A stretch of 35,313 nucleotides of DNA from an uncultured SAR116 cluster alpha proteobacterium (GTDB lineage: Bacteria > Pseudomonadota > Alphaproteobacteria > Puniceispirillales > Marisalimonadaceae). Where the stretch lies: positions 1-35,313 of the forward strand of contig CACMTN010000015.1 in the NCBI GenBank assembly GCA_902616615.1. Reading direction: 5' to 3'. How positions within the stretch are numbered: position 1 is the first letter of the stretch; each line of letters starts with the position of its first letter. Shown here piece by piece: positions 20,752-35,313 of the stretch. Below the pieces are notes generated by a model that did no database searches, was not told the origin of the DNA, and saw only the letters and a list, made by a program, of their open reading frames with translations. The position numbers and the translations under genes are program-made.

Positions 20752-21549
20752 ATGGATATCGTATTTAAATTAATTTTACTTATACCTTTAATTCTAAGTA
20801 CAATTTTCCTTTTTATAAATATTGGAATATGGGCAATATTTCCATTCTGGTTTTTATGTGGATTAGTTGACGTCTCTAGACACAAAACCATGGATCTGAA
20901 ATTAATTAAAGAATATTTCATAGGTAAAGGTTTTTTAACTTTTTTACTATCACCATTAAATCTTTTATCTGATCTTTTATCCCATAGAAATCTTCATACT
21001 TATAAAATTGAAGATCTGCCCCAAGGTCATCAAAATGAAATCAATGATGTTATTTCGCTATTTGATAAAAACTCCAAAGAAATCGTAAAGAAATTTAAAA
21101 AAAATCCAAATGATAATAGAACAATGTTGTTTTATAAATGGTATGGATATGAACTGGATGATTCGATTAAAGAATTTAATAATGAATACAAATATATAAA
21201 AACTATTGGTGTCTCACTTTTTAGAGAGAAGACCTCTACGTCTAGACATTTTGGTCCTCTAAGAATGACTTATCGAGTTTTGTATAATTTTAATAAAGTA
21301 AAAAAGGAAGGTTCTTTTATTGAAGCTGATGGTAGAATTCATAAGTGGAAGTCTGATCCATTATTTATTTTTGATGATACACTAATACATCAAAGCTTTA
21401 ACGAAGAAGATGATTTAAGATTTTGTGCTTTTATTGATATTATTAGGCCTTCTCATTTAGACAATATAATAAAACTTATTTTAAAATCCGTCGGTTTTTT
21501 ATTAAAAAATACTAGGAGTATATTTTATAAAAATTGGAAAATGATATAA
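20752..21549 (+). CDS. Membrane-anchored aspartyl/asparaginyl beta-hydroxylase family enzyme (LpxO-like)
   Basis: An Fe(II)/2-oxoglutarate dioxygenase of about 265 residues. Residues about 5-37 are strongly hydrophobic, giving one or two membrane spans. The catalytic domain retains the family's active site: H166 in SRHFGP, R175 (2-oxoglutarate side), H213 in FDDTLIHQSF and R223 in DLRFCAFID. Membrane anchoring plus this domain is the architecture of LpxO, which hydroxylates the secondary acyl chain of lipid A, so a lipid A or ornithine-lipid hydroxylase is the best guess; a protein substrate cannot be excluded. A GTG one codon upstream (20749) is an alternative start. No ribosome-binding site is evident. 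Confidence 0.82.
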   Translation: MDIVFKLILLIPLILSTIFLFINIGIWAIFPFWFLCGLVDVSRHKTMDLKLIKEYFIGKGFLTFLLSPLNLLSDLLSHRNLHTYKIEDLPQGHQNEINDVISLFDKNSKEIVKKFKKNPNDNRTMLFYKWYGYELDDSIKEFNNEYKYIKTIGVSLFREKTSTSRHFGPLRMTYRVLYNFNKVKKEGSFIEADGRIHKWKSDPLFIFDDTLIHQSFNEEDDLRFCAFIDIIRPSHLDNIIKLILKSVGFLLKNTRSIFYKNWKMI

Positions 21550-21552
21550 AAG

Positions 21553-22692
21553 CTATGCATTAGGCACTAGTATTTGTCTAACAACTTCACCCTTTGCCAA
21601 TTTATCAAAACCTTCATTCAAGTTATCAAATGTAATTTTCCCATCTATTAGCTTATCTACTGGTAAACGTCCTTGTTTATATAAGTTTAAAAATCTAGGT
21701 ACATCTCTTACAGGAACACATGAACCCATATAGCTTCCCAATATTGATTTTTCCTGTGCAACTAAATCACTATGATTAAAACTAAACTGAGTGTTTATGG
21801 GCGATAAACCAGCAGTAACAACAGATCCTCCATATCTAATAATTTGGTAAGCTGTATCCATTGCTTGTATTACACCCGCTAGATCAATAGCATAGTCAAC
21901 ACCGCCATTTGTTAAATCTCTTATTTCTTCAACAATATTATTGTTTTTACTATCAAAACAATGTGTTGCACCAAGTTCTTCTGCTCTACTAAATTTTGAT
22001 GGATCAATATCAATTGCAATTATAGTTTCAGCTCCCGCTAGTTTTGCCCCAATTATGCCATTTAGTCCTACACCTCCTAATCCAATAATGGCAACTGAGT
22101 CTCCTGGTCTTATTCTGGCAGTATTGATTACAGCCCCTACACCAGTCATTACAGCACAACCAAAAAGAGCCGCATCTTCTATATTAAATGCTTTGTCAAT
22201 AACAACTACAGAACCCCTGTCAACTACATTATATTGAGACATGCATGAGATACCTGTATGATGATTAAGCCTGTTTCCTTCCATGTCGGTCAATCTGCTT
22301 CCACCTGACATTAAATCACCTTTTCCTTTTGTAGCAGCTGCAAGTTCACATACTTGGGGTCTTCCTTCAAGACATCTTCTACATCTTCCACAAGAAGGTG
22401 AAAATTGAAAAGCAACGTGATCTCCAACTTTTATATCTTTAACTGCACTTCCTAACTCAACTACTTCACCCGAACCTTCATGACCAATAACTAATGGTAA
22501 GGGCATTACTCTGGATCCATTAATAACTGACAAATCAGAATGACAAAGACCAGCACCCATAACCTTCACAAGAACTTCATTTTCAAGAGGAGGTGATATT
22601 TTGATTTCCTCAATAGATAATGGCTTAGAATCCTTATATGGCTCAGATAATTTATTATTTCTAATAACTGCAGCTTTACATGTAATTGACAT
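21553..22692 (-). CDS. Zinc-dependent alcohol dehydrogenase (last gene of nitrile hydratase operon)
   Basis: A 379-residue medium-chain dehydrogenase. Catalytic zinc ligands are C50 (GLCHSD), H71/E72 (GHEGSGEV) and C179 (GCAVMTGVG); the structural zinc loop C101, C104, C107, C115 is complete. The NAD-binding motif GLGGVGLNG is near 204-212. The insert before the coenzyme domain and the VMTGVGAV pattern resemble class III/long-chain type MDR enzymes rather than simple ethanol dehydrogenases. Its ATG abuts the stop of the nitrile hydratase accessory gene, with AGGAG inside that gene, so translation is coupled. This ties the dehydrogenase functionally to nitrile metabolism, perhaps on an alcohol or aldehyde derived from the same substrate. 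Confidence 0.9.
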   Translation of the reverse strand: MSITCKAAVIRNNKLSEPYKDSKPLSIEEIKISPPLENEVLVKVMGAGLCHSDLSVINGSRVMPLPLVIGHEGSGEVVELGSAVKDIKVGDHVAFQFSPSCGRCRRCLEGRPQVCELAAATKGKGDLMSGGSRLTDMEGNRLNHHTGISCMSQYNVVDRGSVVVIDKAFNIEDAALFGCAVMTGVGAVINTARIRPGDSVAIIGLGGVGLNGIIGAKLAGAETIIAIDIDPSKFSRAEELGATHCFDSKNNNIVEEIRDLTNGGVDYAIDLAGVIQAMDTAYQIIRYGGSVVTAGLSPINTQFSFNHSDLVAQEKSILGSYMGSCVPVRDVPRFLNLYKQGRLPVDKLIDGKITFDNLNEGFDKLAKGEVVRQILVPNA

Positions 22693-23052
22693 TTAAACAC
22701 TCCTACTTTTAATATGTACTGGTTTACCATGAGGTGTAGACAAATAAGCTTGTGTCCATTCTTCTTTTATTAACACCAAATTATCTTGATTACTGATCTT
22801 CTTTATAATGAGAATTTCTTCAAGTGCATTTAACCAACAAGAAAAATAATCATTACTGCCATCTAAGTTTTTTGAGAGTGATCTTTGTTTTTTTAGGGAC
22901 TCTCCAAAAATTTCTACAAACTCTTTCCAGCTAAAATTTCCTTTTTCTGACATTTGAATTGTAATCGCAAATAATTGACTATGCCAAGGATTTTGGAAAA
23001 CAATTTGATCTTCAGTTTCATTCGTGAATGGTAAAATATAATCAGATTTCAT
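22693..23052 (-). CDS. Nitrile hydratase accessory protein (metallochaperone/activator)
   Basis: A 119-residue protein related to the N-terminal part of the nitrile hydratase beta subunit. It shows FQNPWHSQLFAITIQMSEKG, then FSWKEFVEIFGESL, a DYFSCWLNALEEIL segment and the C-terminal TPHGKPV, all hallmarks of the P14K/NhlE-type activators needed to load metal and oxidise the active-site cysteines. It lies 16 bases after the beta gene, where such activators are normally encoded, and directly abuts the dehydrogenase gene. The presence of a dedicated activator argues that the hydratase is functional. Confidence 0.9.
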   Translation of the reverse strand: MKSDYILPFTNETEDQIVFQNPWHSQLFAITIQMSEKGNFSWKEFVEIFGESLKKQRSLSKNLDGSNDYFSCWLNALEEILIIKKISNQDNLVLIKEEWTQAYLSTPHGKPVHIKSRSV

Positions 23053-23068
23053 TTTTATCTTTTTAAAA

Positions 23069-23809
23069 TTAATGTGGAAAAAGTTTTAGGTATGGTTCCC
23101 ACAAGTCTAGAAGTATACTGTCATTTTGACTTTCAGCTAATTCTCCCCATAACTCTGAAGATTTAAACTCCACAGTATATAATGGTAGAGGGTTCTCACC
23201 AAAACCATGAGCATTTTTATCAGGGAAAACATGGTTATTGTGATAAGAATGAATTACTCCAACTCTTCCCATGGCATATTTTGGTAATCGTGTATGACCG
23301 CCACTAACATCTTTATTTGGACTGTAATTTTGTGTAATAACCTTATCGCCTATATCAAAAACAGAATTTACATTTGTGTCTCTAATAGAAGGACCTCCCC
23401 AACCTAGTGTTTTTTGAACATCCTTAGCTAACCAAGTTCTGTGATCAAGTTTGATGTCTTTATCAGAAAACTTTGTTAAAGTTCCGTTTTTTGCTGCAGA
23501 AACATATTCTTTTAACTCATCTAACGAAACAAGTTTTTTATCAATTAAAAGGTTAGTAAGAGCTGCTAACCATTTTTCGTAATAAGAAAAATTTATATAA
23601 TCTTTTGGTGGCAAACACTCTCTATAATGACGACTAATATCTAGATTCCATTCACCTAGAGCTCCAGCAGCAAGAGTAATTGCCCATGCCTTAGCATGCC
23701 ACTCATACTTGAAAGTTGGTTCAGAGTTAGTTATTTCATTATCATTATCTCTTGGAACAGGAATTGATCCATCACCAAAACGACCACCCATGTCGTGCAA
23801 TCTACTCAT
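23069..23809 (-). CDS. nthB: Nitrile hydratase subunit beta
   Basis: The structural partner of the catalytic alpha subunit. The 246-residue product begins with the conserved [10 protein letters not shown], continues with an alpha-helical region ([20 protein letters not shown]), and ends with the beta-barrel domain: [15 protein letters not shown], then [15 protein letters not shown] and [13 protein letters not shown]. These Arg and Tyr-bearing segments contact the alpha-subunit active site in known structures. Its ATG overlaps the alpha-subunit stop by four bases (ATGA), so the two chains are made in fixed ratio. Slightly longer than typical beta subunits. Confidence 0.95.
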
Positions 23810-24447
23810 TTTATTTCCTTTGGTAATCCAGTACCTATCATTGAATTTCTTGTTACCAATTCTGCAAGTTCACTTTGATCCATATTTTCAGTACCTTGTG
23901 GTCTCATTGGTAATACCAAATATCTTATTTCAGCAGTTGAATCCCATACTTTTATCTGAACTTTTGGATCTAAAGATAATCCAAATTCTAAAAGAACTTT
24001 TCTAGGTTCTCTTACTGTTCTTGATCTATATTCATCACTTTTATACCAAGTTGGGGGAATGCCAAGGACTGGCCATGGATAACAACTACATAATGTACAA
24101 ACTATTACATTGTGAGTTTCAGGTGTGTTTTCAACAACAACCATATTTTCACCCTGTCTTCCTTGGTAACTCAATTCTCTAATTGCAGATGTAGCATCAT
24201 TCAAAAGTCTTTTTTTATATTCTGAATCTACCCAGGCTTTAGCTACTACTTTTGCACCATTTTTAGGGCCTATTCGATTTTCATAAGTGTCAATCAATTC
24301 ATCTAAAGTTTGAGAATCAATTAAACCTTTGTTTAAAAGCAAAGTCTCTACCGCTTTTACTCTTAATTCAGGATCTGATGGTAAATGTGAATGCGCATGA
24401 TCATGTGGATGATGATGGTCATCAGTAATATTTTTCTTTTCACTCAT
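23806..24447 (-). CDS. nthA: Nitrile hydratase subunit alpha, cobalt type
   Basis: The catalytic subunit, hydrating nitriles to amides; soluble heterodimer or heterotetramer. The 213-residue product has the metal-binding claw [11 protein letters not shown] with C117, C120, S121 and C122; Thr at the second position and Tyr after the third Cys mark the cobalt class, whereas iron enzymes read CSLCSCT. Two of the cysteines are oxidised in mature enzymes. The N-terminus is unusually His-rich: seven histidines between residues 11 and 21. First of the alpha-beta-accessory set, preceded after 31 bases by a Zn alcohol dehydrogenase. No amidase, the usual partner for the amide product, lies nearby. Confidence 0.96.
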
Positions 24448-24478
24448 AATCCATTCCTTTTTTTATCATTAAATATTT

Positions 24479-25525
24479 CTAATCTGGAATTAGAACTATT
24501 CTTCCATTAACTTTGCCCAATCTTAAATCAGACATTGCTTGATTTGCAGTTTCTAAACCTTGTTTTTTTACAGGTATTAATTTTATTTTGCCGGATTTGA
24601 TGATATTAACAAGTTCTTTTAATTCTCTTAACTCTCCTACGTAAGAACCTCTAAGCGTCATAGATCTCATTGGTACCAATGGCAATGATAGTTTTAGCGA
24701 ACCACCGTACAAACCTACCACAATTACCATTCCACCTTTTTTTACTAATGATAGACCAAAGTCAGTGGTTTCTGGTCTTCCAACAAAGTCTATTGCTGCT
24801 GCTGAACCAATACCAATTTTATTTCTAATTTCAGTCTCTGCATCTGGTGGAAAAGCTTCATTTGCACCAGCTTCAATAGCTTTTTTCCTCTTTTCTGGAT
24901 CATTATCTATTACTAAAATTTTTGCTTTGTGCACTGCAGGAGATAATAAAATACCATTTATACCAACGCCACCTGCACCAATAATAATAATCCAATCATC
25001 TTTTGAAGTTGTAGGAATTTTTTTTAGAGCACTAAATGCAGTTAGACCTGAACATGCGTATGGTGCTGCTTGTGCAGGATCCATATCACCGTAAGAAACT
25101 ATATATTTACTATGAGGTACAATTATGTGATCAGAATAACCTCCATCAAGACGAGCGCCTAAATATTTAGGAGCCTCGCATAATGTTTCATTATTTTCTA
25201 AACAAGCTGCACATTTTCCACAACCTATCCATGGGAATACTATTCCAGAATCACCTATTTTAATATCTTTTACATTCTCACCTAAAGCTACTACAGTTCC
25301 CGTAATCTCATGTCCTGGCGTAAATGGTAATTTTGTTCCTCTATCAGCTAATGTTATTTTTTTTCCACCTCCTAAATCAAAATACCCATCTGCCAAATGA
25401 AGATCACTGTGACAAACACCACAAGCTGTAATCTTTACAAGAACTTCATCTCCTCTAGGTTGTGGGTTTTCATATTCTCTTAATTCTAAAGGTTCACCAA
25501 ACTCAACAACCTGATAACTCTTCAT
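24479..25525 (-). CDS. Zinc-dependent alcohol dehydrogenase upstream of nitrile hydratase
   Basis: A 348-residue MDR enzyme, clearly distinct from the second dehydrogenase of the operon. Catalytic zinc: C38 (GVCHSD), H72/E73 (GHEITG) and C158. Structural zinc: C102, C105, C108, C116. NAD-binding motif IGAGGVGINGILL (182-194). Residues 50-70 contain a GGGKK insertion before the GHE motif. It resembles the group annotated as alcohol dehydrogenases active on longer or substituted alcohols, but the substrate is unknown. It follows the isocitrate-lyase-family gene by 27 bases. Having two dehydrogenases flank the nitrile hydratase is unusual. Confidence 0.9.
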   Translation of the reverse strand: MKSYQVVEFGEPLELREYENPQPRGDEVLVKITACGVCHSDLHLADGYFDLGGGKKITLADRGTKLPFTPGHEITGTVVALGENVKDIKIGDSGIVFPWIGCGKCAACLENNETLCEAPKYLGARLDGGYSDHIIVPHSKYIVSYGDMDPAQAAPYACSGLTAFSALKKIPTTSKDDWIIIIGAGGVGINGILLSPAVHKAKILVIDNDPEKRKKAIEAGANEAFPPDAETEIRNKIGIGSAAAIDFVGRPETTDFGLSLVKKGGMVIVVGLYGGSLKLSLPLVPMRSMTLRGSYVGELRELKELVNIIKSGKIKLIPVKKQGLETANQAMSDLRLGKVNGRIVLIPD

Positions 25526-25552
25526 TAAACAATTCTCCCCATCTAAAAATTA

Positions 25553-26425
25553 TCAACTTCTTTTTGAAGTTTCGTACTTGCTTGATATTTCATAATAATC
25601 ATCAAATCCAATTTTCTGTCTTAAATCACTAAAATCTAGTAATAACCCAGATCTATCTTCATCTTTCATTAGCAAATTTAACGAGTTTGTCATTGCTTTC
25701 ATTGCTGAACTCATAACTGTAAGTGGGTACACAGCAAGTTTATAACCAATTTCTGATAATTCTTTCATGGATAAATTTGGTGTAATACCTCCCTCAACAA
25801 TGTTAGCTATTTTAACACCAGGAATTTCTTTACATATTGTTCTCATTTCTTCTTTGTTTTTTGGAGCCTCAACAAACATGATATCTGCCCCAAGTTCATA
25901 AAATTTTTGTGATCTTAATATTGCCTCACTCAGACCATGAGTGTGATTGGCATCTGTTCTGGCCATAATTAAAATATCATAACCTTCATTTCTCATATCA
26001 GTAGCTGCTCTTATTCTATCAAATGCCTCCTCACGATTTACAACATCCTTTCCTGGAGTGTGACCACAACGCTTTGGCGCTAGTTGATCTTCAATCAATA
26101 TGCCAGCACAACCTGCCTTAGCACATTCTTTCAATGTTCTACGAACGTTCATGGCATTTCCATAACCAGTGTCTCCATCTACTATCATTGGTATGTCAAT
26201 TGCGTTACAAATATTGTTTGCTTGGTCAAAAACTTCTGAGAAGGTCATAAGCCCAAGATCTGGAGATCCTATCCTAGAGGCAGACGCAGCAAAACCTGAC
26301 ATAAAGGTTACATCAAAATTTGCTTGTTGTATTAATTTTGCAGATAAAGCATCAAAACAAGACGGTATTGGAATAAAAGGTTTTTCTTTTAAAATCTTTC
26401 TTAAATTATCAGGCTTACTTATCAT
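25553..26425 (-). CDS. Isocitrate lyase/PEP mutase superfamily enzyme (2-methylisocitrate lyase- or oxaloacetate decarboxylase-like)
   Basis: A 290-residue TIM-barrel enzyme. It carries the Mg-binding DGDTGYG (83-89), E112/D113, and the active-site loop KRCGHTPGK with C120, which marks the C-C lyase branch (methylisocitrate, dimethylmalate lyases) rather than PEP phosphonomutase. IVEGG follows near the C-terminal part of the barrel. The expected chemistry is retro-aldol cleavage or decarboxylation of a 2-substituted dicarboxylate to a 2-oxo acid such as pyruvate; the true substrate cannot be read. Upstream, after 48 bases, is the AceE-like gene, which would use a 2-oxo acid, so the two may act in sequence. 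Confidence 0.88.
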   Translation of the reverse strand: MISKPDNLRKILKEKPFIPIPSCFDALSAKLIQQANFDVTFMSGFAASASRIGSPDLGLMTFSEVFDQANNICNAIDIPMIVDGDTGYGNAMNVRRTLKECAKAGCAGILIEDQLAPKRCGHTPGKDVVNREEAFDRIRAATDMRNEGYDILIMARTDANHTHGLSEAILRSQKFYELGADIMFVEAPKNKEEMRTICKEIPGVKIANIVEGGITPNLSMKELSEIGYKLAVYPLTVMSSAMKAMTNSLNLLMKDEDRSGLLLDFSDLRQKIGFDDYYEISSKYETSKRS

Positions 26426-26473
26426 TTTATTTCTTTATATATAAGTCCTATAAATCTTAATATTAAGAATTAC

Positions 26474-28771
26474 TTAAGCTAAGTCAAAGCCTAGTTTACT
26501 TATGTTACCAGAGTCAATTGTAAACTCTGTCAAAAGTTCTTTTATGTTGCCAGTTTGTCCAAAACGATCAACACCGAGTGGTATTACTTTATGACCAAGT
26601 ACAGAGCCTAACCAAGATAATGTTAGTTGATGACCGTCAATTACCGTCAAAATTTTAGTGTCTCTTGGAATTTCTTTTAATAAAATTTCAACATGAGATT
26701 CAATTGTATTTTGATTTGAAGATAATTGTTTATTTTTCCAATCATCTAACATTCTATCCGAACTCGTAATAGCTAAAACTCCAATATCTCTAAATTTTTC
26801 TCCTAAAATTGTTGTTGCTTCTATTATCTCTGTGGCAATGACACCTTGATAAGCTAGTATAATTTCTGGATTTGATCCAGGTTCCTTCAACCAATATCCT
26901 CCTTTTAAAACTTGATCTTTAAAATCGTTTGTTAATTCTCTATAAGGTTGTTCTATAGATCTTGTACTTAGCCTTATATAAACAGAACCACCATTTTCAT
27001 CCTGCAAATAATTAAAGCTATAATTCAAGATTATTGACAATTCATCTGCAAACGCTGGCTCAAAACTTAAAAGGCCTGGCTGACTAATCCCAGTTAATGG
27101 GGTTCCTATAGATTGATGTGCCCCGCCCTCTGGCGCTAGGGAAACACCAGAGGGAGTTCCTACAATTATAAATCTTGCATCTTGATAACATGCATAATTC
27201 AAAGCATCTAATCCTCTAGCAATGAATGAGTCATATACAGTCCCTATTGGGAACAATCTTTCATTAAATAATTCATGAGAAAGACCAGCAGATCCAAGCA
27301 TTATAAATAAATTCATTTCAGCAATACCAAGCTCTATATGCTGTCCATCTGGAGAAAAAATCCACTTTTGAGCTGATGGTATTTTGCGATCTTTAAATAT
27401 ATCAGAAGTATCTTTTCTACTGAATAATCCTTTTCTATTTATCCAAGATCCAAGATTAGTAGAAACCGATACATCAGGTGATGTGGTTAAAATTCTTTGG
27501 GTAAATTCAGTATTGTTTTTTGCATAAGAGTTTATAATTTTTCCAAACGCACTTTGAGTAGATATTTTATTATCATTTATGAATACAGGTTCATCAATTA
27601 CTACTTTATTTCCACTAAATTTTCTATGACCTGCTTTTTGAAAAGGAAGTTTTTTGATATATTCATGAATGTTTAATTCGCTTTTTTCATCAGAAAAATT
27701 ATTCCATTCCTCACCATCATTAATTTCTAATTTAGATTTAAAATCGTTCATTTGAGCTTTTGTCATAAGACCAGCATGATTATCTTTATGGCCCGCTAAT
27801 GGAGTGCCCCACCCTTTAATTGTGTATGCAATAAATGCAGTAGGTTTATCATCTTTTATATTGTTAAATGCTTCACATAACGTTGAAATACAGTGACCAC
27901 CTAAATTTGACATTAATTCTAAAAAATCAGAATCAGATCTTTTGTTAATTAATTTTGAAACCTCACATTGATCGCCAATATCATCTAAGATTCTTTTTTT
28001 AAAGACTTCACCACCTTCAAATATCAAAGCTGAATATAATTGATTAGGACAATAATCAATCCATTTTTTTAATTTATTTCCACCAGGCTCTTTAAATGCT
28101 TCCTCTTGTAATTTTCCATATTTTAATACCACAAGGTTCCAATCAAATGCTGAAAAAACTGAGCTTAGTCGCTCTGAAAGTCCTTCATGAACAACACCAT
28201 CAAGTGACTGCCGATTATAATCAATTATCCACCAAACATTTCTTAAATCATGTTTCCAACCTTCTTGAAGACACTCATAAACATTACCCTCATCAAGCTC
28301 TGCATCACCAACTAATGCAATCATTCTCCCTAGAGGTTTATTTTTATAAAATTTTTTTCTTGCAACGTAATCCTGAATTAGAGAAATAAAACTTGTCATT
28401 GCGACACCCAAACCTACTGATCCAGTTGAAATGTCAACATCGTCTATATCTTTTGTTCTAGAAGGGTATGATTGTGCGCCACCAAAACCTCTAAAATTTT
28501 GAATTTTTTCTTTAGTTTGCAATCCAGATAAATACTGAATAGCATGAAATACTGGGCTTGCATGAGGTTTAACTGCAACTCTGTCTTCAGGTCTTAAAAT
28601 ACTAAAATACAAAGCTGTCATTATTGAAACTATTGAAGCAGAACTAGCTTGATGACCACCAACTTTAAGTCCATCTTGATTTTCTCTAATGTGATTTGCA
28701 TTATGAATCATCCAACAAGCAAGCCACAACACTTTCTTTTCAATTTTTTTTAAAATATCAACATCATTCAT
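26474..28771 (-). CDS. AceE-like (homodimeric E1) 2-oxo acid dehydrogenase/transketolase-family protein
   Basis: A thiamine diphosphate enzyme of 765 residues. It has GGHQASSASIVSIM (38-51), KPHASPVFHA (68-77), TGSVGLG (116-122) and the ThDP motif GDAELDEG (155-162) through N186, all as in AceE. The C-terminal half contains the transketolase pyrimidine and C-terminal domains (QHIELGIAEMNLF). E. coli AceE is 887 residues and its extra N-terminal part includes the E2-binding segment; that part is missing here. The closest precedent is MdeB-type E1 proteins for 2-oxobutyrate, encoded beside an Lrp-family regulator. No E2 or E3 gene adjoins. It begins the leftward seven-gene run. Confidence 0.85.
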   Translation of the reverse strand: MNDVDILKKIEKKVLWLACWMIHNANHIRENQDGLKVGGHQASSASIVSIMTALYFSILRPEDRVAVKPHASPVFHAIQYLSGLQTKEKIQNFRGFGGAQSYPSRTKDIDDVDISTGSVGLGVAMTSFISLIQDYVARKKFYKNKPLGRMIALVGDAELDEGNVYECLQEGWKHDLRNVWWIIDYNRQSLDGVVHEGLSERLSSVFSAFDWNLVVLKYGKLQEEAFKEPGGNKLKKWIDYCPNQLYSALIFEGGEVFKKRILDDIGDQCEVSKLINKRSDSDFLELMSNLGGHCISTLCEAFNNIKDDKPTAFIAYTIKGWGTPLAGHKDNHAGLMTKAQMNDFKSKLEINDGEEWNNFSDEKSELNIHEYIKKLPFQKAGHRKFSGNKVVIDEPVFINDNKISTQSAFGKIINSYAKNNTEFTQRILTTSPDVSVSTNLGSWINRKGLFSRKDTSDIFKDRKIPSAQKWIFSPDGQHIELGIAEMNLFIMLGSAGLSHELFNERLFPIGTVYDSFIARGLDALNYACYQDARFIIVGTPSGVSLAPEGGAHQSIGTPLTGISQPGLLSFEPAFADELSIILNYSFNYLQDENGGSVYIRLSTRSIEQPYRELTNDFKDQVLKGGYWLKEPGSNPEIILAYQGVIATEIIEATTILGEKFRDIGVLAITSSDRMLDDWKNKQLSSNQNTIESHVEILLKEIPRDTKILTVIDGHQLTLSWLGSVLGHKVIPLGVDRFGQTGNIKELLTEFTIDSGNISKLGFDLA

Positions 28772-28848
28772 TTTTTTACTGTAGCATCTTTCAAATGGAA
28801 TGAATCACTAAATATTATAAAAATACTTCCTGAATTAATATTATCTGC

Positions 28849-28880
28849 TAATATAAATTTATTATTAAAATATTATATTA
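28849..28880. promoter_or_regulatory. Inverted repeat between the AceE-like and Lrp genes
   Basis: TAATATAA (28849-28856) and TTATATTA (28873-28880) are perfect inverted arms 16 bases apart. The element AATATTAT occurs three times in this gap, at 28811, 28837 and 28869. Lrp/AsnC proteins bind AT-rich imperfect dyads, so this is a candidate operator for the divergent genes; AT bias is the alternative explanation. Confidence 0.35.
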
Positions 28881-28893
28881 AAATAGGATTTTT

Positions 28894-29361
28894 TTGAGCA
28901 ATATTGATAAAATAGATCAAAAAATTATTTTTTATCTTCAGCAAAATGGAAAATTAACAAATTTTGAGTTAGCTGAAAAAGTTGGCCTGTCACCCTCTCC
29001 TTGCTTAAGAAGAGTAAAAACCTTAGAGCAAAAAGGTTTAATAGCTGGTTATACAGCTATAATTGATGAAATTGCTTATGGTTATCCGGTAACTGCTTTT
29101 GTATCTGTTAGATTAGAGAATCAAACTGATCAAATTTTAAAGTCATTTGAAAAAGAAGTAATATCTTTAGATGCTGTTATGGATTGTTGGTTAGTAACTG
29201 GAAATAGAGATTATTTATTAAGAGTTGTTGCGACTGACTTAAAAAACTATGAAATATTTATGAGAGAAGAACTCACAAAGGTTAAAGGTATTGCATCAAT
29301 AGAAACAAATTTTGCGCTAGGAAGAGTTAAAACAATAAATACCTTACCTATAAATTATTAA
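28894..29361 (+). CDS. Lrp/AsnC family transcriptional regulator
   Basis: A 155-residue feast/famine regulator with an N-terminal winged helix-turn-helix (about 5-60; recognition region LSPSPCLRRVKTLEQKGLI) and a C-terminal RAM/ligand domain (about 65-150) containing the usual MDCWLVTGNRDYLLRV. The start is TTG at 28894 with AGGA five bases upstream; no ATG lies in frame near it. Such proteins form octamers and sense amino acids or 2-oxo acids. It is divergent from the AceE-like gene across 122 bases, the arrangement of a local regulator controlling that operon; the likely effector is an amino acid or amino-acid-derived metabolite, by inference. Confidence 0.93.
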   Translation: MSNIDKIDQKIIFYLQQNGKLTNFELAEKVGLSPSPCLRRVKTLEQKGLIAGYTAIIDEIAYGYPVTAFVSVRLENQTDQILKSFEKEVISLDAVMDCWLVTGNRDYLLRVVATDLKNYEIFMREELTKVKGIASIETNFALGRVKTINTLPINY

Positions 29362-29381: not shown

Positions 29382-30287
29382 TTGATAAAGAATTTAAAAA
29401 ATATAAATGCTGGAGATTTAAATGTAAGCTACTTTGAGGCAGGTTCAAGAAAAGGTTTACCTGTAATATTTCTGCATGGCTTCCCATACGATATTCACGC
29501 TTACAAAGAAGTAGCCCCGTTATTAATGTCAAGCTGCAGAATAATTATTCCTTACTTAAGAGGGTATGGACACACAATTTTTTTACATAATGATACCTTA
29601 CGTTCAGGTCAACAAGCAGCTCTTGGATTTGACTTGTTAAAACTTATGGACGCACTCAAAATAGATAAAGCAATTTTAGGAGGATATGATTGGGGCGGCA
29701 GGGCAGCTTGCATAGTTGCTGCACTATATCCAAATAGGTGTTTAGGTATAGTTTCCTGCAACGGCTACAATATTCAAGACATAAAAAAGTCGTCAATACC
29801 AGTTAAACCAGAAACTGAACAAAAATTGTGGTATCAATATTTTTTCCATAGTGAAAGGGGACGAAATGGTCTTTTAAATCAACGTCATGATTTTATAAAA
29901 TTTATTTGGAAAACATGGTCACCAACCTGGAATGTTAATAATAATTTATATAATTTAAGTGCTAATGCTTTTGAGAATCCTGATTTTGTAGAAGTAGTCA
30001 TTCATAGTTACCGGCATCGATTTGGGCTAGTATGTGGAGACAAAAGGTTTGAAAAATTGGAAAAGAAATTATCTAACCAGCCTGTTATTTCTGCTCCTGC
30101 CATAACAATTGACGGTGATAATGACGGCGTGACCGCATTATCTGATATTGCAAAAATTAAACAAAAATTTTCAAATCATCTCAAACATGAAATTCTTCCA
30201 AATATTGGCCATAATGTACCTCAGGAGGACCCTAAAAATTTTTCCAAAGCCATTTTACACATAATAAAAATTCACAAAAATTTATAA
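29382..30287 (+). CDS. Alpha/beta hydrolase with aspartate nucleophile (epoxide hydrolase/haloalkane dehalogenase-like)
   Basis: A 301-residue alpha/beta hydrolase. The nucleophile elbow reads GGYDWGG, so D103 replaces serine, as in epoxide hydrolases, haloalkane dehalogenases and fluoroacetate dehalogenases. The oxyanion motif HGFPYD and the base in NIGHNVPQEDP are present, and a Trp-rich cap (KTWSPTWN) occupies the middle. The only usable start is TTG at 29382, because an in-frame TGA sits at 29376-29378; a weak GAAA precedes it. It is 20 bases downstream of the Lrp gene and probably co-transcribed. Whether it opens epoxides or removes halogens cannot be told. Confidence 0.85.
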   Translation: MIKNLKNINAGDLNVSYFEAGSRKGLPVIFLHGFPYDIHAYKEVAPLLMSSCRIIIPYLRGYGHTIFLHNDTLRSGQQAALGFDLLKLMDALKIDKAILGGYDWGGRAACIVAALYPNRCLGIVSCNGYNIQDIKKSSIPVKPETEQKLWYQYFFHSERGRNGLLNQRHDFIKFIWKTWSPTWNVNNNLYNLSANAFENPDFVEVVIHSYRHRFGLVCGDKRFEKLEKKLSNQPVISAPAITIDGDNDGVTALSDIAKIKQKFSNHLKHEILPNIGHNVPQEDPKNFSKAILHIIKIHKNL

Positions 30288-33580: not shown

Positions 33581-34513
33581 CTAATTTATGTTAGTATTAT
33601 TTTTTCCTTTTAGCCCTAACATTTGTCTTGCTTCATTAGGTGTGGCAATCTCCAGTGAAAGTCCCTCTAAGATTTCTCTTACCCTTTTTACTTGATCAGC
33701 ATTTGTCTTAGCTAAATTACCAGGGCCGTCCCATAGAGAATCTTCAAGACCAACACGCACATGAGAACCTAAAGAAGCACCAGTTGCATTCATCCTCATT
33801 TGAGTTGCTCCAGCACCGACAACTGACCACTCATAACCTACTTCACCGAATAATTTATCAGCTGTTTTTTTCATATGTAATAAATTGTCAGCATCAGCGC
33901 CAATACCACCCATTATTCCCATAACAAATTGAATAAAGTAAGGACCTTTTAACATACCTTCTCTATGAAAATAATAAAGATTATATAAGTGACCAACATC
34001 ATAACATTCAAACTCAAATTTTGTTCCATTTTCATAACCAAATGTCATTATGTTTTCAATATCCTCAAAAGTATTTTTAAAAAGAGAATACTTACTTTTT
34101 TCAAGCATTTCTTTTTCCCAAGGATATTTTAACTGATTATGTCTTTTGAGCATTGGGAAAAGTCCAAAATTCATTGATCCCATATTCAAAGAAGCAAGTT
34201 CTGGTTTAAAATGCATTGCAGGCTTCATTCTCTCTTCCACTGTCATTTGTGGACCACCTCCAGTTGTTATATTTATCACTGCATCACAAGAATTGTGAAT
34301 GGTTGGCAGAAATTTTTGAAATTCTTCTGGATCTTGAGTTGGGTGGCCATCATCCTCATCTCGTGCATGCAAATGCAGAACAGCTGCACCAGCTTCATGT
34401 GCTGCTAATGAATGTTCAATAACTTCTTCTGCTGTCACCGGTAAAAACTCCGACATTGAAGGTGTATGTATCGCTCCAGTTACTGCACAGCTGATAATTA
34501 CTTTTTTAGCCAT
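33581..34513 (-). CDS. Beta-keto acid cleavage enzyme (BKACE, DUF849 family)
   Basis: Members condense a beta-keto acid with acetyl-CoA and release acetoacetate plus a new CoA ester. The 310-residue TIM-barrel protein begins KKVIISCAVTGAIHTPSMSE and carries the zinc site H47/H49 in HLHARDEDDGHPTQ. NITTGGG and LNMGSMNFG follow, and a GAGATQMRMN segment lies in the C-terminal half. Characterised relatives act on 3-keto-5-aminohexanoate or 3-dehydrocarnitine. Here the gene abuts a 3-hydroxyacyl-CoA dehydrogenase that would make the beta-keto substrate; the carnitine-type pathway is possible but not proved. Confidence 0.92.
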   Translation of the reverse strand: MAKKVIISCAVTGAIHTPSMSEFLPVTAEEVIEHSLAAHEAGAAVLHLHARDEDDGHPTQDPEEFQKFLPTIHNSCDAVINITTGGGPQMTVEERMKPAMHFKPELASLNMGSMNFGLFPMLKRHNQLKYPWEKEMLEKSKYSLFKNTFEDIENIMTFGYENGTKFEFECYDVGHLYNLYYFHREGMLKGPYFIQFVMGIMGGIGADADNLLHMKKTADKLFGEVGYEWSVVGAGATQMRMNATGASLGSHVRVGLEDSLWDGPGNLAKTNADQVKRVREILEGLSLEIATPNEARQMLGLKGKNNTNIN

Positions 34514-35313
34514 TTAAATATCCTCTCCTAATTCAAATTTAAGCTTTCTAATTAATGCAATCATTTTATTTCTTTTTTCTACCCTATTATCCCTTTGATC
34601 ATAAGATAATCTTTTTCTTTGATCCATTTCTAATTTATTTAAATATTCTTCTGAATATTCAGGAACACTATTTTGCTCCTTAGCTAAATTTTGAATACCC
34701 TTTCTATATCGAGTAAAAGAATCTTTGATACCCTCTGGTGCATTTAAGTCCATAATCTCAAAGGGACCCATGAATGCCCACCTTATACCTAATGCATGTT
34801 TTAAAGCTATATCGATATCTTCCATAGAAGCAAATCCTCCTTCATGAAGTCTAACTGCTTCGTTAAGAAGAGCACCCTGCAATCTATTTAAAATAAAACC
34901 TTCTGCCTCTCTATTAACAGTAATTGCAGCATATTTAGCTTTTTTGTATATTGAAATAGCTTGTTTAATAATTTTTGAAGCGGTTTTCGCCCCGCCAGCA
35001 ACTTCAACAAATGGAACAATATGAGGTGGCAAAGCGGGATGGGCATTGATACATCTATACTTATGTTTTACAAGCTCGGAAATTCTAGAAATCAAAAGAT
35101 AAGATGAAGATGAGGCAATTATAGTATTTTCTGATGAAAGTTTATCTAATTGTACAAAAACTTTTTTTTTTATCTCTAAATCTTCTATAACACTTTCCTG
35201 AATTAAGATAGAATCATTGCAAATTTCTTCAATATTACAGTTAAGTTTAATATTAGAATTTATCTTTAATTCATCTATATCGGGATTAATGATACGCAAA
35301 TCTTGGATTAATT
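34514..35313 (-). CDS. 3-hydroxyacyl-CoA dehydrogenase family protein (lambda-crystallin/carnitine dehydrogenase type), 5' partial
   Basis: The frame runs off the window end: codons upstream of the TTG at 35299 stay open to 35313, so the N-terminal Rossmann part is missing. The visible part has the substrate-site INAHPALPPHIVPFVEVAGG with catalytic His, then EGFILNRLQGALLNEA and GPFEIMDLNAPEGI, close to L-gulonate/lambda-crystallin type and carnitine dehydrogenases rather than fatty-acid FadB. It should oxidise a beta-hydroxy acid with NAD. Its stop abuts the BKACE start with no spacer. No thioesterase domain is fused at the C-terminus, unlike some carnitine dehydrogenases. Confidence 0.88.
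   Translation of the reverse strand, partial: LIQDLRIINPDIDELKINSNIKLNCNIEEICNDSILIQESVIEDLEIKKKVFVQLDKLSSENTIIASSSSYLLISRISELVKHKYRCINAHPALPPHIVPFVEVAGGAKTASKIIKQAISIYKKAKYAAITVNREAEGFILNRLQGALLNEAVRLHEGGFASMEDIDIALKHALGIRWAFMGPFEIMDLNAPEGIKDSFTRYRKGIQNLAKEQNSVPEYSEEYLNKLEMDQRKRLSYDQRDNRVEKRNKMIALIRKLKFELGEDI

Follow-up and report, generated by a model that had tools for sequence, protein, structure and literature searches.

What does a nitrile hydratase do in a marine alphaproteobacterium, and how does it relate to the AceE-like E1 enzyme, lyase, and alcohol dehydrogenases (ADHs) encoded beside it? Nitrile hydratases (NHases) are used in industry, but what most of them do in nature is unclear. 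We analyzed a 35,313-nt stretch of SAR116 DNA (contig CACMTN010000015.1; here called the window), in which seven genes occupy positions 21553 to 28771, on the minus strand throughout (Table 1). A sequence-only reading of the window had described seven genes on one strand, divergent from an Lrp-type gene and separated, from E1 to ADH2, by gaps of 48, 27, 31, −4, 16, and 0 bases. On recount, all of these gaps were exact, and the seven-gene operon is confirmed as a genuine feature. Chance open reading frames were ruled out, since all seven genes have family matches and conserved orders. No terminator-like site was found on the minus strand between positions 21400 and 29000 (one site was found, on the plus strand, versus 3.4 expected), which lends weak support to a single transcript. 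Promoter-like sites showed no excess over shuffled sequences.

Table 1. Coordinates of the operon, its divergent regulator, and the junctions discussed in the text
Feature	Position	Strand	Basis or remark
Lrp/AsnC-family regulator	28894..29361	+	TTG start; divergent from operon; family matches
Lrp gene-E1 divergent intergenic region, 122 bases	28772..28893	.	Presumed control region; sequence and 17-region alignment
E1, homodimeric AceE-like ThDP enzyme, 765 aa	26474..28771	-	Family matches and 1l8a alignment
E1-lyase junction, 48 bases	26426..26473	-	Possible deletion scar; TRAP site in many relatives
C-C lyase, PEP mutase/isocitrate lyase superfamily, 290 aa	25553..26425	-	Family matches; nearest solved relative 1zlp
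ADH1, zinc-type NAD-dependent alcohol dehydrogenase family	24479..25525	-	Best solved matches 2eer, 1jvb
Nitrile hydratase alpha subunit, CTLCSC metal motif (Co type)	23806..24447	-	Family match and motif
Nitrile hydratase beta subunit	23069..23809	-	Family match and solved-structure alignment
Nitrile hydratase accessory (activator) protein, 119 aa	22693..23052	-	Family match
ADH2, zinc-type alcohol dehydrogenase, class I/III (liver ADH) group	21553..22692	-	Family and structure matches

All three NHase proteins scored above their NCBIfam equivalog cutoffs (alpha, 311.5 versus 249.85 bits; beta, 210.2 versus 152.2 bits; accessory protein, 75.2 versus 46 bits). The alpha subunit contains the sequence CTLCSC, the metal-claw motif of the Co type. 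Co-type NHase sets (e.g., 3qxe) share this motif and the alpha, beta, and activator genes with the SAR116 operon, and solved Co-type NHases gave nearly full-length alignments with its subunits. Family scores and motif together point to a Co-type NHase, with predicted conversion of nitrile to amide. Unlike Co-type sets, the SAR116 operon has no amidase, has two zinc ADHs flanking the NHase genes, and is joined to an AceE-like E1. Its order is alpha-beta-activator, whereas beta-alpha-activator is the order of most Co-type sets according to a review (PMC7193024).

The sequence-only reading had held that an amidase is missing and that NHases usually sit beside one. The first statement is correct for the operon and for the identified genes of the window, where no amidase was found. 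It does not extend to the genome, in which a whole-genome search located seven amidase-signature genes elsewhere (from eight matches, of which two share a reading frame). No amidase-like match was detected in the 38 SAR116-family E1 loci at an E value of 1e-10. The second statement did not hold in our survey: an amidase-like match lay within ~2 kb of the NHase in 4 of 40 loci of the class, hand-picked from NHase matches, and in 8 of the 17 loci that came from the same order. The queries for this survey were the seven amidases of the window genome and three nitrilase-superfamily proteins (E value of 1e-8), a search that remote amidases may escape.

Among 58 genomes of the SAR116 family, 42 had an NHase, a share close to their mean completeness (about 73%), and so did all 9 family genomes that are at least 88% complete. 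It was not seen in the other 16 of the 58, an absence that incompleteness probably explains. The family NHases form a clade of their own (support, 100/98, with a bootstrap that had not settled), apart from the f4 clade; these trees leave out the window sequences and use L031 (98% identical E1) and L033 as stand-ins. A vertical link between the family NHase and that of the sister family was not recovered in the tree.

We then compared the E1 protein with pyruvate dehydrogenase E1. It is AceE-like but scored far below the aceE cutoff (167.8 versus 859.9), and public records label its family as transketolase or DXP synthase N-terminal domain proteins. Residues 9 to 756 align with residues 80 to 847 of E. 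coli pyruvate dehydrogenase E1 (1l8a), and the homology includes the GGH, SYP, and GI.E stretches, which have catalytic meaning. In contrast to E. coli AceE, the SAR116 protein lacks the N-terminal ~75 residues, the E2-binding region. A dedicated E2 was considered and rejected, with one E2 gene in the window genome and one or two in the nine near-complete family genomes. The Lrp gene adjoins E1 in 34 of 38 SAR116-family loci; the contigs of the other 4 start within or just before E1. Seventeen of the divergent Lrp-E1 regions were aligned; they are A+T-rich, with a mean column identity of 59%, and no convincing Lrp operator site was found in the alignment.

To place this E1 family in a broader context, we looked at the 42 named E1 loci left after SAR116 loci were removed from the best 80 of 314, some of them on short contigs; the Lrp, methionine gamma-lyase, and ACC deaminase queries were taken in part from these same loci. 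Pairs of this E1 and a divergent Lrp gene, with no NHase alongside, are common across Alphaproteobacteria: an Lrp-type match was found at most 5 kb from E1 in 27 of these 42 loci. A gene for methionine gamma-lyase (4 loci) or ACC deaminase (7 loci) precedes E1 in 11 of the 42, with NCBIfam equivalogs supplying the enzyme names for L116, L142, and L109. Of 29 short loci of the class, 7 have a methionine gamma-lyase match next to E1. The Sulfitobacter mediterraneus locus, for example, encodes Lrp, methionine gamma-lyase, an aminotransferase, OsmC, and E1. In Mesorhizobium, the Lrp-E1 pair is 3.4 kb from genes for acyl-CoA carboxylase and methylmalonyl-CoA mutase, with other genes intervening. 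Since methionine gamma-lyase and ACC deaminase both produce 2-oxobutyrate, the E1 family can be tied to 2-oxobutyrate metabolism through these neighbors. Weak TRAP transporter matches occurred near E1 in 5 of the 42 loci. None of the 42 had an NHase or ADH match near E1, and none had a lyase match within 5 kb of it; hence, both of these links rest on SAR116.

The P. putida mde operon reportedly contains an Lrp-type regulator, methionine gamma-lyase, and an E1-like protein for 2-oxobutyrate. The SAR116 operon resembles this arrangement in having an AceE-like E1 and, divergent from it, a gene of the Lrp family. E1 of the same family adjoins methionine gamma-lyase in Maritalea, Stappia, and Sulfitobacter. 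The SAR116 operon differs in containing NHase and ADH genes and no methionine gamma-lyase. Indeed, none of 61 genomes of the order had a methionine gamma-lyase match over the cutoff (weaker family matches occurred in 58, and the window genome itself is 75% complete). A methionine-driven mde operon in SAR116 was thus ruled out, and 2-oxobutyrate would need another source.

We next determined how widely the gene set is conserved. Genes for ADH1, NHase alpha, NHase beta, the accessory protein, and ADH2 lie downstream of E1 at every one of the 35 family loci (of 38 named) whose contigs reach that far, and the gene order is the same in all 35 if the presence of TRAP and lyase is set aside. The sequence-only reading had asked whether related genomes keep this order, and they do; no close relative showed an ordinary order. 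In the 23 loci for which they were measured, the junctions from ADH1 to ADH2 are short, ranging from −22 to 80 bases. We concluded that the operon is characteristic of a single SAR116 family, beyond chance, and that the gene set is modular, with a variable TRAP transporter and lyase and a constant NHase block. One explanation is shared transcription with separate jobs, in which a compact genome would join the ADH1-NHase-ADH2 block to an Lrp-E1 oxo-acid gene, sometimes with TRAP and lyase, for unrelated substrates. Adjacency by itself is weak evidence here, because the family shares synteny over the whole surrounding block of ~20 kb, from a thiolase gene through a 3-hydroxyacyl-CoA dehydrogenase-like gene. 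Many Alphaproteobacteria have E1-Lrp without NHase, and the TRAP-lyase unit is found without E1 or the NHase block. However, the short junctions argue against separate jobs, as does the fact that E1, ADH1, NHase, and ADH2 have remained linked at each of the 35 informative loci, 10 of which lack the lyase, despite the variation in TRAP and lyase. We regard separate jobs as possible but rather unlikely.

The lyase was assigned by its closest solved relative. It scored below the prpB cutoff (254.6 versus 354.4), and a methylcitrate cycle involving PrpB (methylisocitrate lyase) was ruled out because this score is too low. Its best solved match is petal death protein (1zlp; E value of 5e-59), a 2-alkylmalate lyase. 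The stretches VDGDTG, FVEAP, and EGG.TP are common to the SAR116 lyase and 1zlp and differ in methylisocitrate lyase 1mum, whereas the CGH loop is common to all three. The SAR116 enzyme differs from petal death protein in being bacterial, operon borne, and, in relatives, encoded beside a TRAP transporter. The match to 1zlp and the CGH loop suggest a petal-death-protein type with putative 2-alkylmalate cleavage. It has 290 amino acids in the window and 292 to 299 in TRAP-bearing relatives.

Many relatives encode a TRAP transporter (DctP-Q-M) between E1 and the lyase; the window copy of the operon has none. The nearest solved binding proteins to DctP are of sialic-acid and generic DctP types, and the ligand is not decided by sequence. 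TRAP is absent at 23 of 38 family E1 loci, which counts against a single pathway requiring it. L038 retains a broken DctP piece between E1 and lyase, indicating that TRAP was lost at least once. Over its full length, the 48-base junction of the window can be aligned with the E1-DctP junction of L033, with 36 identities. Since 32 of 1,000 shuffles reach the same junction-only score, loss of TRAP in the window's own lineage is stated as likely, not proven. The junction of L060, as read from the sequence, is 17 bases long. In the sister-family genome G069 (locus L285), TRAP and lyase are encoded ~1.3 kb away on the far side of the E1-divergent Lrp gene, and no NHase or ADH match was found at that locus; this gives some independent support for the lyase-E1 link.

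These data bear on the proposal of the sequence-only reading that the operon is a linear pathway dedicated to a single nitrile: the lyase would make a 2-oxo acid, E1 would oxidize it, and both ADHs would act on the same skeleton. The set is conserved and unusual, all its genes stand in one run in the window genome, and G069 also has the lyase near E1. The lyase did not hold up as a fixed step: it is absent beside E1 at 10 of 38 family loci that retain NHase and ADHs, with a trace of it left in L084 and L108, and six g2 genomes carry it with its own TRAP transporter at a separate four-gene locus. We therefore consider a dedicated one-nitrile route improbable.

Both ADHs are zinc-type enzymes by family matches; ADH2 scored below the cutoff for NDMA-dependent alcohol dehydrogenase (317.5 versus 440). 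At 18 ADH2 loci elsewhere, taken from 60 genomes with a match, no NHase or E1 match was found; 3 of the 18 had weak lyase-family matches (30 to 33%).

The explanation that we favor, tentatively and as somewhat short of an even chance, is an Lrp-controlled E1 of the 2-oxobutyrate type that is supplied in two ways, by a removable TRAP/alkylmalate-lyase cassette and by a conserved nitrile/alcohol block. It builds on the gene content and its conservation, on TRAP in relatives with at least one loss, on the TRAP-lyase unit, and on the 2-oxobutyrate-making neighbors of E1 elsewhere. Against it stand the lack of a methionine gamma-lyase over the cutoff in the order, the one or two E2 genes of near-complete genomes, the 16 family genomes in which no NHase was seen, the 23 loci without TRAP, the synteny of the surrounding block, and the confinement of the NHase/ADH and lyase links to SAR116. 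We infer a single Lrp-controlled transcription unit whose three modules would converge on a short 2-oxo acid, most likely 2-oxobutyrate. In the first module (Lrp gene and E1), this acid would be decarboxylated, giving a propionyl unit if the E2 of PDH or OGDH is borrowed and an aldehyde if E1 acts alone. The second (TRAP importer and petal-death-protein-like lyase) would import an external 2-alkylmalate-type acid and cleave it to the 2-oxo acid; it would be a removable cassette, of which the window retains the lyase only. In the third (Co-type NHase, activator, and two zinc ADHs), a small membrane-permeable nitrile bearing a hydroxy or alcohol group would be hydrated to the amide and its hydroxyl oxidized. 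An unlinked amidase would complete the hydrolysis, and the carbon may enter the same oxo-acid pool and so feed the first module.

Cyanide buffering, in which cyanide would combine with aldehydes or 2-oxo acids to form cyanohydrins for hydration by NHase while pools of aldehydes and oxo acids would be kept in check by the ADHs and E1, is just as doubtful as the one-nitrile route: the gene-family names cover oxo acids, aldehydes, and nitriles, and oxo acids of a cyanide-tolerant pseudomonad trap cyanide as cyanohydrin, but that study (PMC12294151) proposes a nitrilase, not NHase, with its authors doubting assimilation that way, and no known cyanide gene was found among the scanned neighboring genes.

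The literature searched contained no description of an E1-lyase-ADH-NHase gene set and no paper with both “nitrile hydratase” and “SAR116.” A bolder reading is an undescribed pathway throughout this family of open-ocean SAR116 bacteria that would hydrate, hydrolyze, and oxidize a small natural hydroxynitrile to a 2-oxo acid. An Lrp-controlled, E2-less AceE-like enzyme would decarboxylate this acid, and a swappable TRAP/alkylmalate-lyase cassette would supply the same step; we consider this reading unlikely. The transporter and lyase come and go while the NHase block stays, which reveals the dispensable parts. With an NHase in a fixed operon with defined partners in a marine family, the question of its natural substrate becomes testable.

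The seven minus-strand genes of the window and the divergently oriented Lrp-family gene (see table) agree with the sequence-only reading, whose gene gaps were all exact. Family searches identified, in gene order, an AceE-like E1, a lyase of the PEP mutase/isocitrate lyase superfamily, a zinc alcohol dehydrogenase (ADH1), nitrile hydratase (NHase) alpha, beta and accessory proteins, and a second zinc alcohol dehydrogenase (ADH2). NHase alpha contains CTLCSC, and alpha and beta have near full-length matches to solved cobalt enzymes. The window's genome is 1.73 Mb and 75% complete; the named relatives found in the E1 search were mostly SAR116-cluster genomes. The SAR116 family of the window (f1) comprises genera g1 to g4. 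Against g2 and g4, identity is 79-81% for ADH2 but 50-53% for NHase beta and 42-48% for the accessory protein, so that these two have diverged far more than ADH2 of the same operon.

Features of the window and of one relative
Feature	Sequence	Positions	Strand
Seven-gene operon	window	21553-28771	minus
NHase accessory gene	window	22693-23052	minus
NHase beta gene	window	23069-23809	minus
E1-lyase junction	window	26426-26473	
Lrp-family gene	window	start at 28894	opposite to operon
Alpha/beta hydrolase gene	window	29382-30287	
BKACE-family gene	window	33581-34513	
3-Hydroxyacyl-CoA dehydrogenase-like gene	window	34514-35299	
TRAP genes	L033 (g1 locus)	12103-14908	

Gene order proved to be conserved in relatives. 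ADH1, NHase alpha, beta and accessory genes, and ADH2 lie downstream of E1 in 35 of 38 named f1 loci, and the contigs of the remaining three (L085, L088, and L096) stop before reaching the block. An Lrp gene is present in 34 of the 38; the contigs of the other four (L099, L102, L106, and L107) start within or just before E1. NHase alpha was found in 42 of 58 f1 genomes, a share close to their mean completeness (about 73%), and in all 9 that are at least 88% complete (tallied from the table of genomes). Synteny in f1 spans the whole neighborhood, from a thiolase gene to the 3-hydroxyacyl-CoA dehydrogenase-like gene; hence, adjacency alone is a weak sign of shared function. The latter gene adjoins, together with an SDR gene, a BKACE-family gene that scores above the NCBIfam cutoff for 3,5-dioxohexanoate:acetyl-CoA acetone transferase (509.5 versus 430 bits).

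The absence of an amidase, claimed previously, holds for the operon and the scanned neighbor genes but not genome-wide: seven amidase-signature genes (eight rows, two sharing one frame) lie elsewhere in the genome, which also has three nitrilase-superfamily genes. Nor did the expectation that NHases usually sit beside an amidase apply here. An amidase-like match lay within ~2 kb of NHase in 4 of 40 chosen loci from the class (one match partial) and in 8 of 17 loci from the same order. Thus, within the sensitivity of the amidase search, NHase without an adjoining amidase is common in the class. In a sister family, locus L055 (genome G088) has an amidase-like gene flanked by two divergent NHase-alpha-like genes. 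Directly behind the window's Lrp gene is an alpha/beta hydrolase gene whose product could serve the pathway as an amidase or esterase. Most g1 loci and a single g3 locus have this gene; L087 and the g2 and g4 loci inspected gave no match.

Of 385 alphaproteobacterial genomes, 132 had a match to the E1 alignment and 142 had NHase. Among the best 80 of 314 E1 loci, 42 named loci lie outside SAR116. Near E1 in these 42, there was no NHase or ADH match and no lyase match, and 5 had a weak match to a TRAP transporter. An Lrp-type match lay within 5 kb of E1 in 27. In 11, a gene for methionine gamma-lyase (4 loci) or ACC deaminase (7 loci) lay upstream at a center-to-center distance of about 1.8 to 2 kb. 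Both enzymes release 2-oxobutyrate, and three representatives scored above equivalog cutoffs. A further 29 short loci from the class included methionine gamma-lyase in 7 and an Lrp-type match in 17. A Sulfitobacter plasmid carries consecutive genes for Lrp, methionine gamma-lyase, an aminotransferase, OsmC, and E1. On a Mesorhizobium plasmid, acyl-CoA carboxylase and methylmalonyl-CoA mutase genes lie 3.4 kb from Lrp-E1, and the intervening genes include a regulator and a transposase; a Pseudosulfitobacter record has Lrp-E1 with no neighbor of this kind. In seven rhizobial genomes (L109 to L113, L120, and L125), an ACC deaminase gene is just ahead of E1, with a divergent Lrp gene, a pairing that suggests a route for 2-oxobutyrate from ACC deaminase. 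No methionine gamma-lyase scored above the cutoff in 61 genomes of the window's order, which counts against simple transfer of the E1 role to SAR116. E1 differs from AceE in missing the first ~75 AceE residues, the E2-binding region, and nine near-complete f1 genomes have one or two E2 genes each; a dedicated E2 is therefore unlikely.

The nearest solved relative of the lyase is petal death protein, a 2-alkylmalate lyase. The CGH loop is present, and the lyase shares with petal death protein stretches that differ in methylisocitrate lyase. Our best guess is a 2-alkylmalate lyase yielding a 2-oxo acid. PrpB was rejected as an identity, the score being under its cutoff.

In many relatives, E1 and the lyase are about 2.9 kb apart, and the interval encodes DctP, DctQ, and DctM of a TRAP transporter (DctP and DctM identities are backed by family models). 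TRAP is present in 15 of 38 f1 loci (including L088, whose contig ends before the lyase), the lyase without TRAP in 13, the class of the window, and neither in 10. Genus g2 has no TRAP or lyase within the operon; six g2 genomes (G040, G043, G049, G050, G051, and G052) have a separate four-gene DctP-DctQ-DctM-lyase locus. DctM of these genomes shares 94-96% identity with DctM of one g1 subgroup, whereas window and g2 E1 are only 70% identical, and the TRAP tree (DctM/DctP) groups this subgroup with g2 (100/100), contrary to the E1 and lyase trees. These results point to a transfer of the transporter from one SAR116 genus to another; the loci concerned are L319 to L324 and L033. In G069, from a sister family, E1 is divergent from the Lrp gene, and DctP, DctQ, DctM, and lyase are encoded on the same strand as Lrp, some 1.3 kb past it, across an interval with possible plus-strand open reading frames; no NHase or ADH match was found in this stretch. 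We conclude from the g2 and G069 loci that TRAP-lyase is a unit, located near E1-Lrp in two families.

TRAP loss is certain in L038, from a genus other than the window's, since what lies between its E1 and lyase genes is a 5′ fragment of DctP with a broken frame (against intact L039, 151 identities and 9 mismatches). Lyase loss is seen in L084 and L108, which retain a trace of the lyase 3′ end between E1 and ADH1 (matched by 1 and 0 of 500 shuffles). The window's junction (48 bases) gives an end-to-end alignment to the E1-DctP junction of relatives, but 32 of 1,000 shuffles equal it, making a weaker case for loss than these traces. A search at an E value of 1e-60 revealed no close DctP in the rest of the window's genome; 15 of the 58 genomes searched had one. 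The lyase is 290 residues long in the window and in L031, L065, and L070, its neighbors without TRAP, 299 in the nearest TRAP-bearing g1 relatives, and 292 to 299 across all TRAP-bearing loci measured. Because TRAP appears to have moved between genera, the window may have lost it or may descend from TRAP-less ancestry, its neighbors having regained it.

In our reading, the operon centers on an E1 of the 2-oxobutyrate type that is under Lrp control and has two upstream feeds. The first would be a removable TRAP/alkylmalate-lyase cassette, of which only the lyase is left in the window's genome. The second would be the conserved NHase and two-ADH block, acting on a small nitrile. The analysis establishes the genes present, their order and conservation, the loss of TRAP or lyase in some relatives, TRAP-lyase as a unit, and neighbors of E1 that make 2-oxobutyrate; we infer the single transcript, all substrates, and the feeding of E1 by the NHase block. 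The weakened junction scar leaves the odds of this mechanism unchanged, as it does not bear on it. The chief alternative is that the blocks share nothing but a transcript. A cyanide-buffering role is possible: in one pseudomonad, oxo acids serve as a trap for cyanide (PMC12294151). In the literature searched, we found no paper joining "nitrile hydratase" with "SAR116" and none describing this gene set. The enzymes are individually of known families; what is apparently new is their combination, the fixation of this set in one family, and its modular history.
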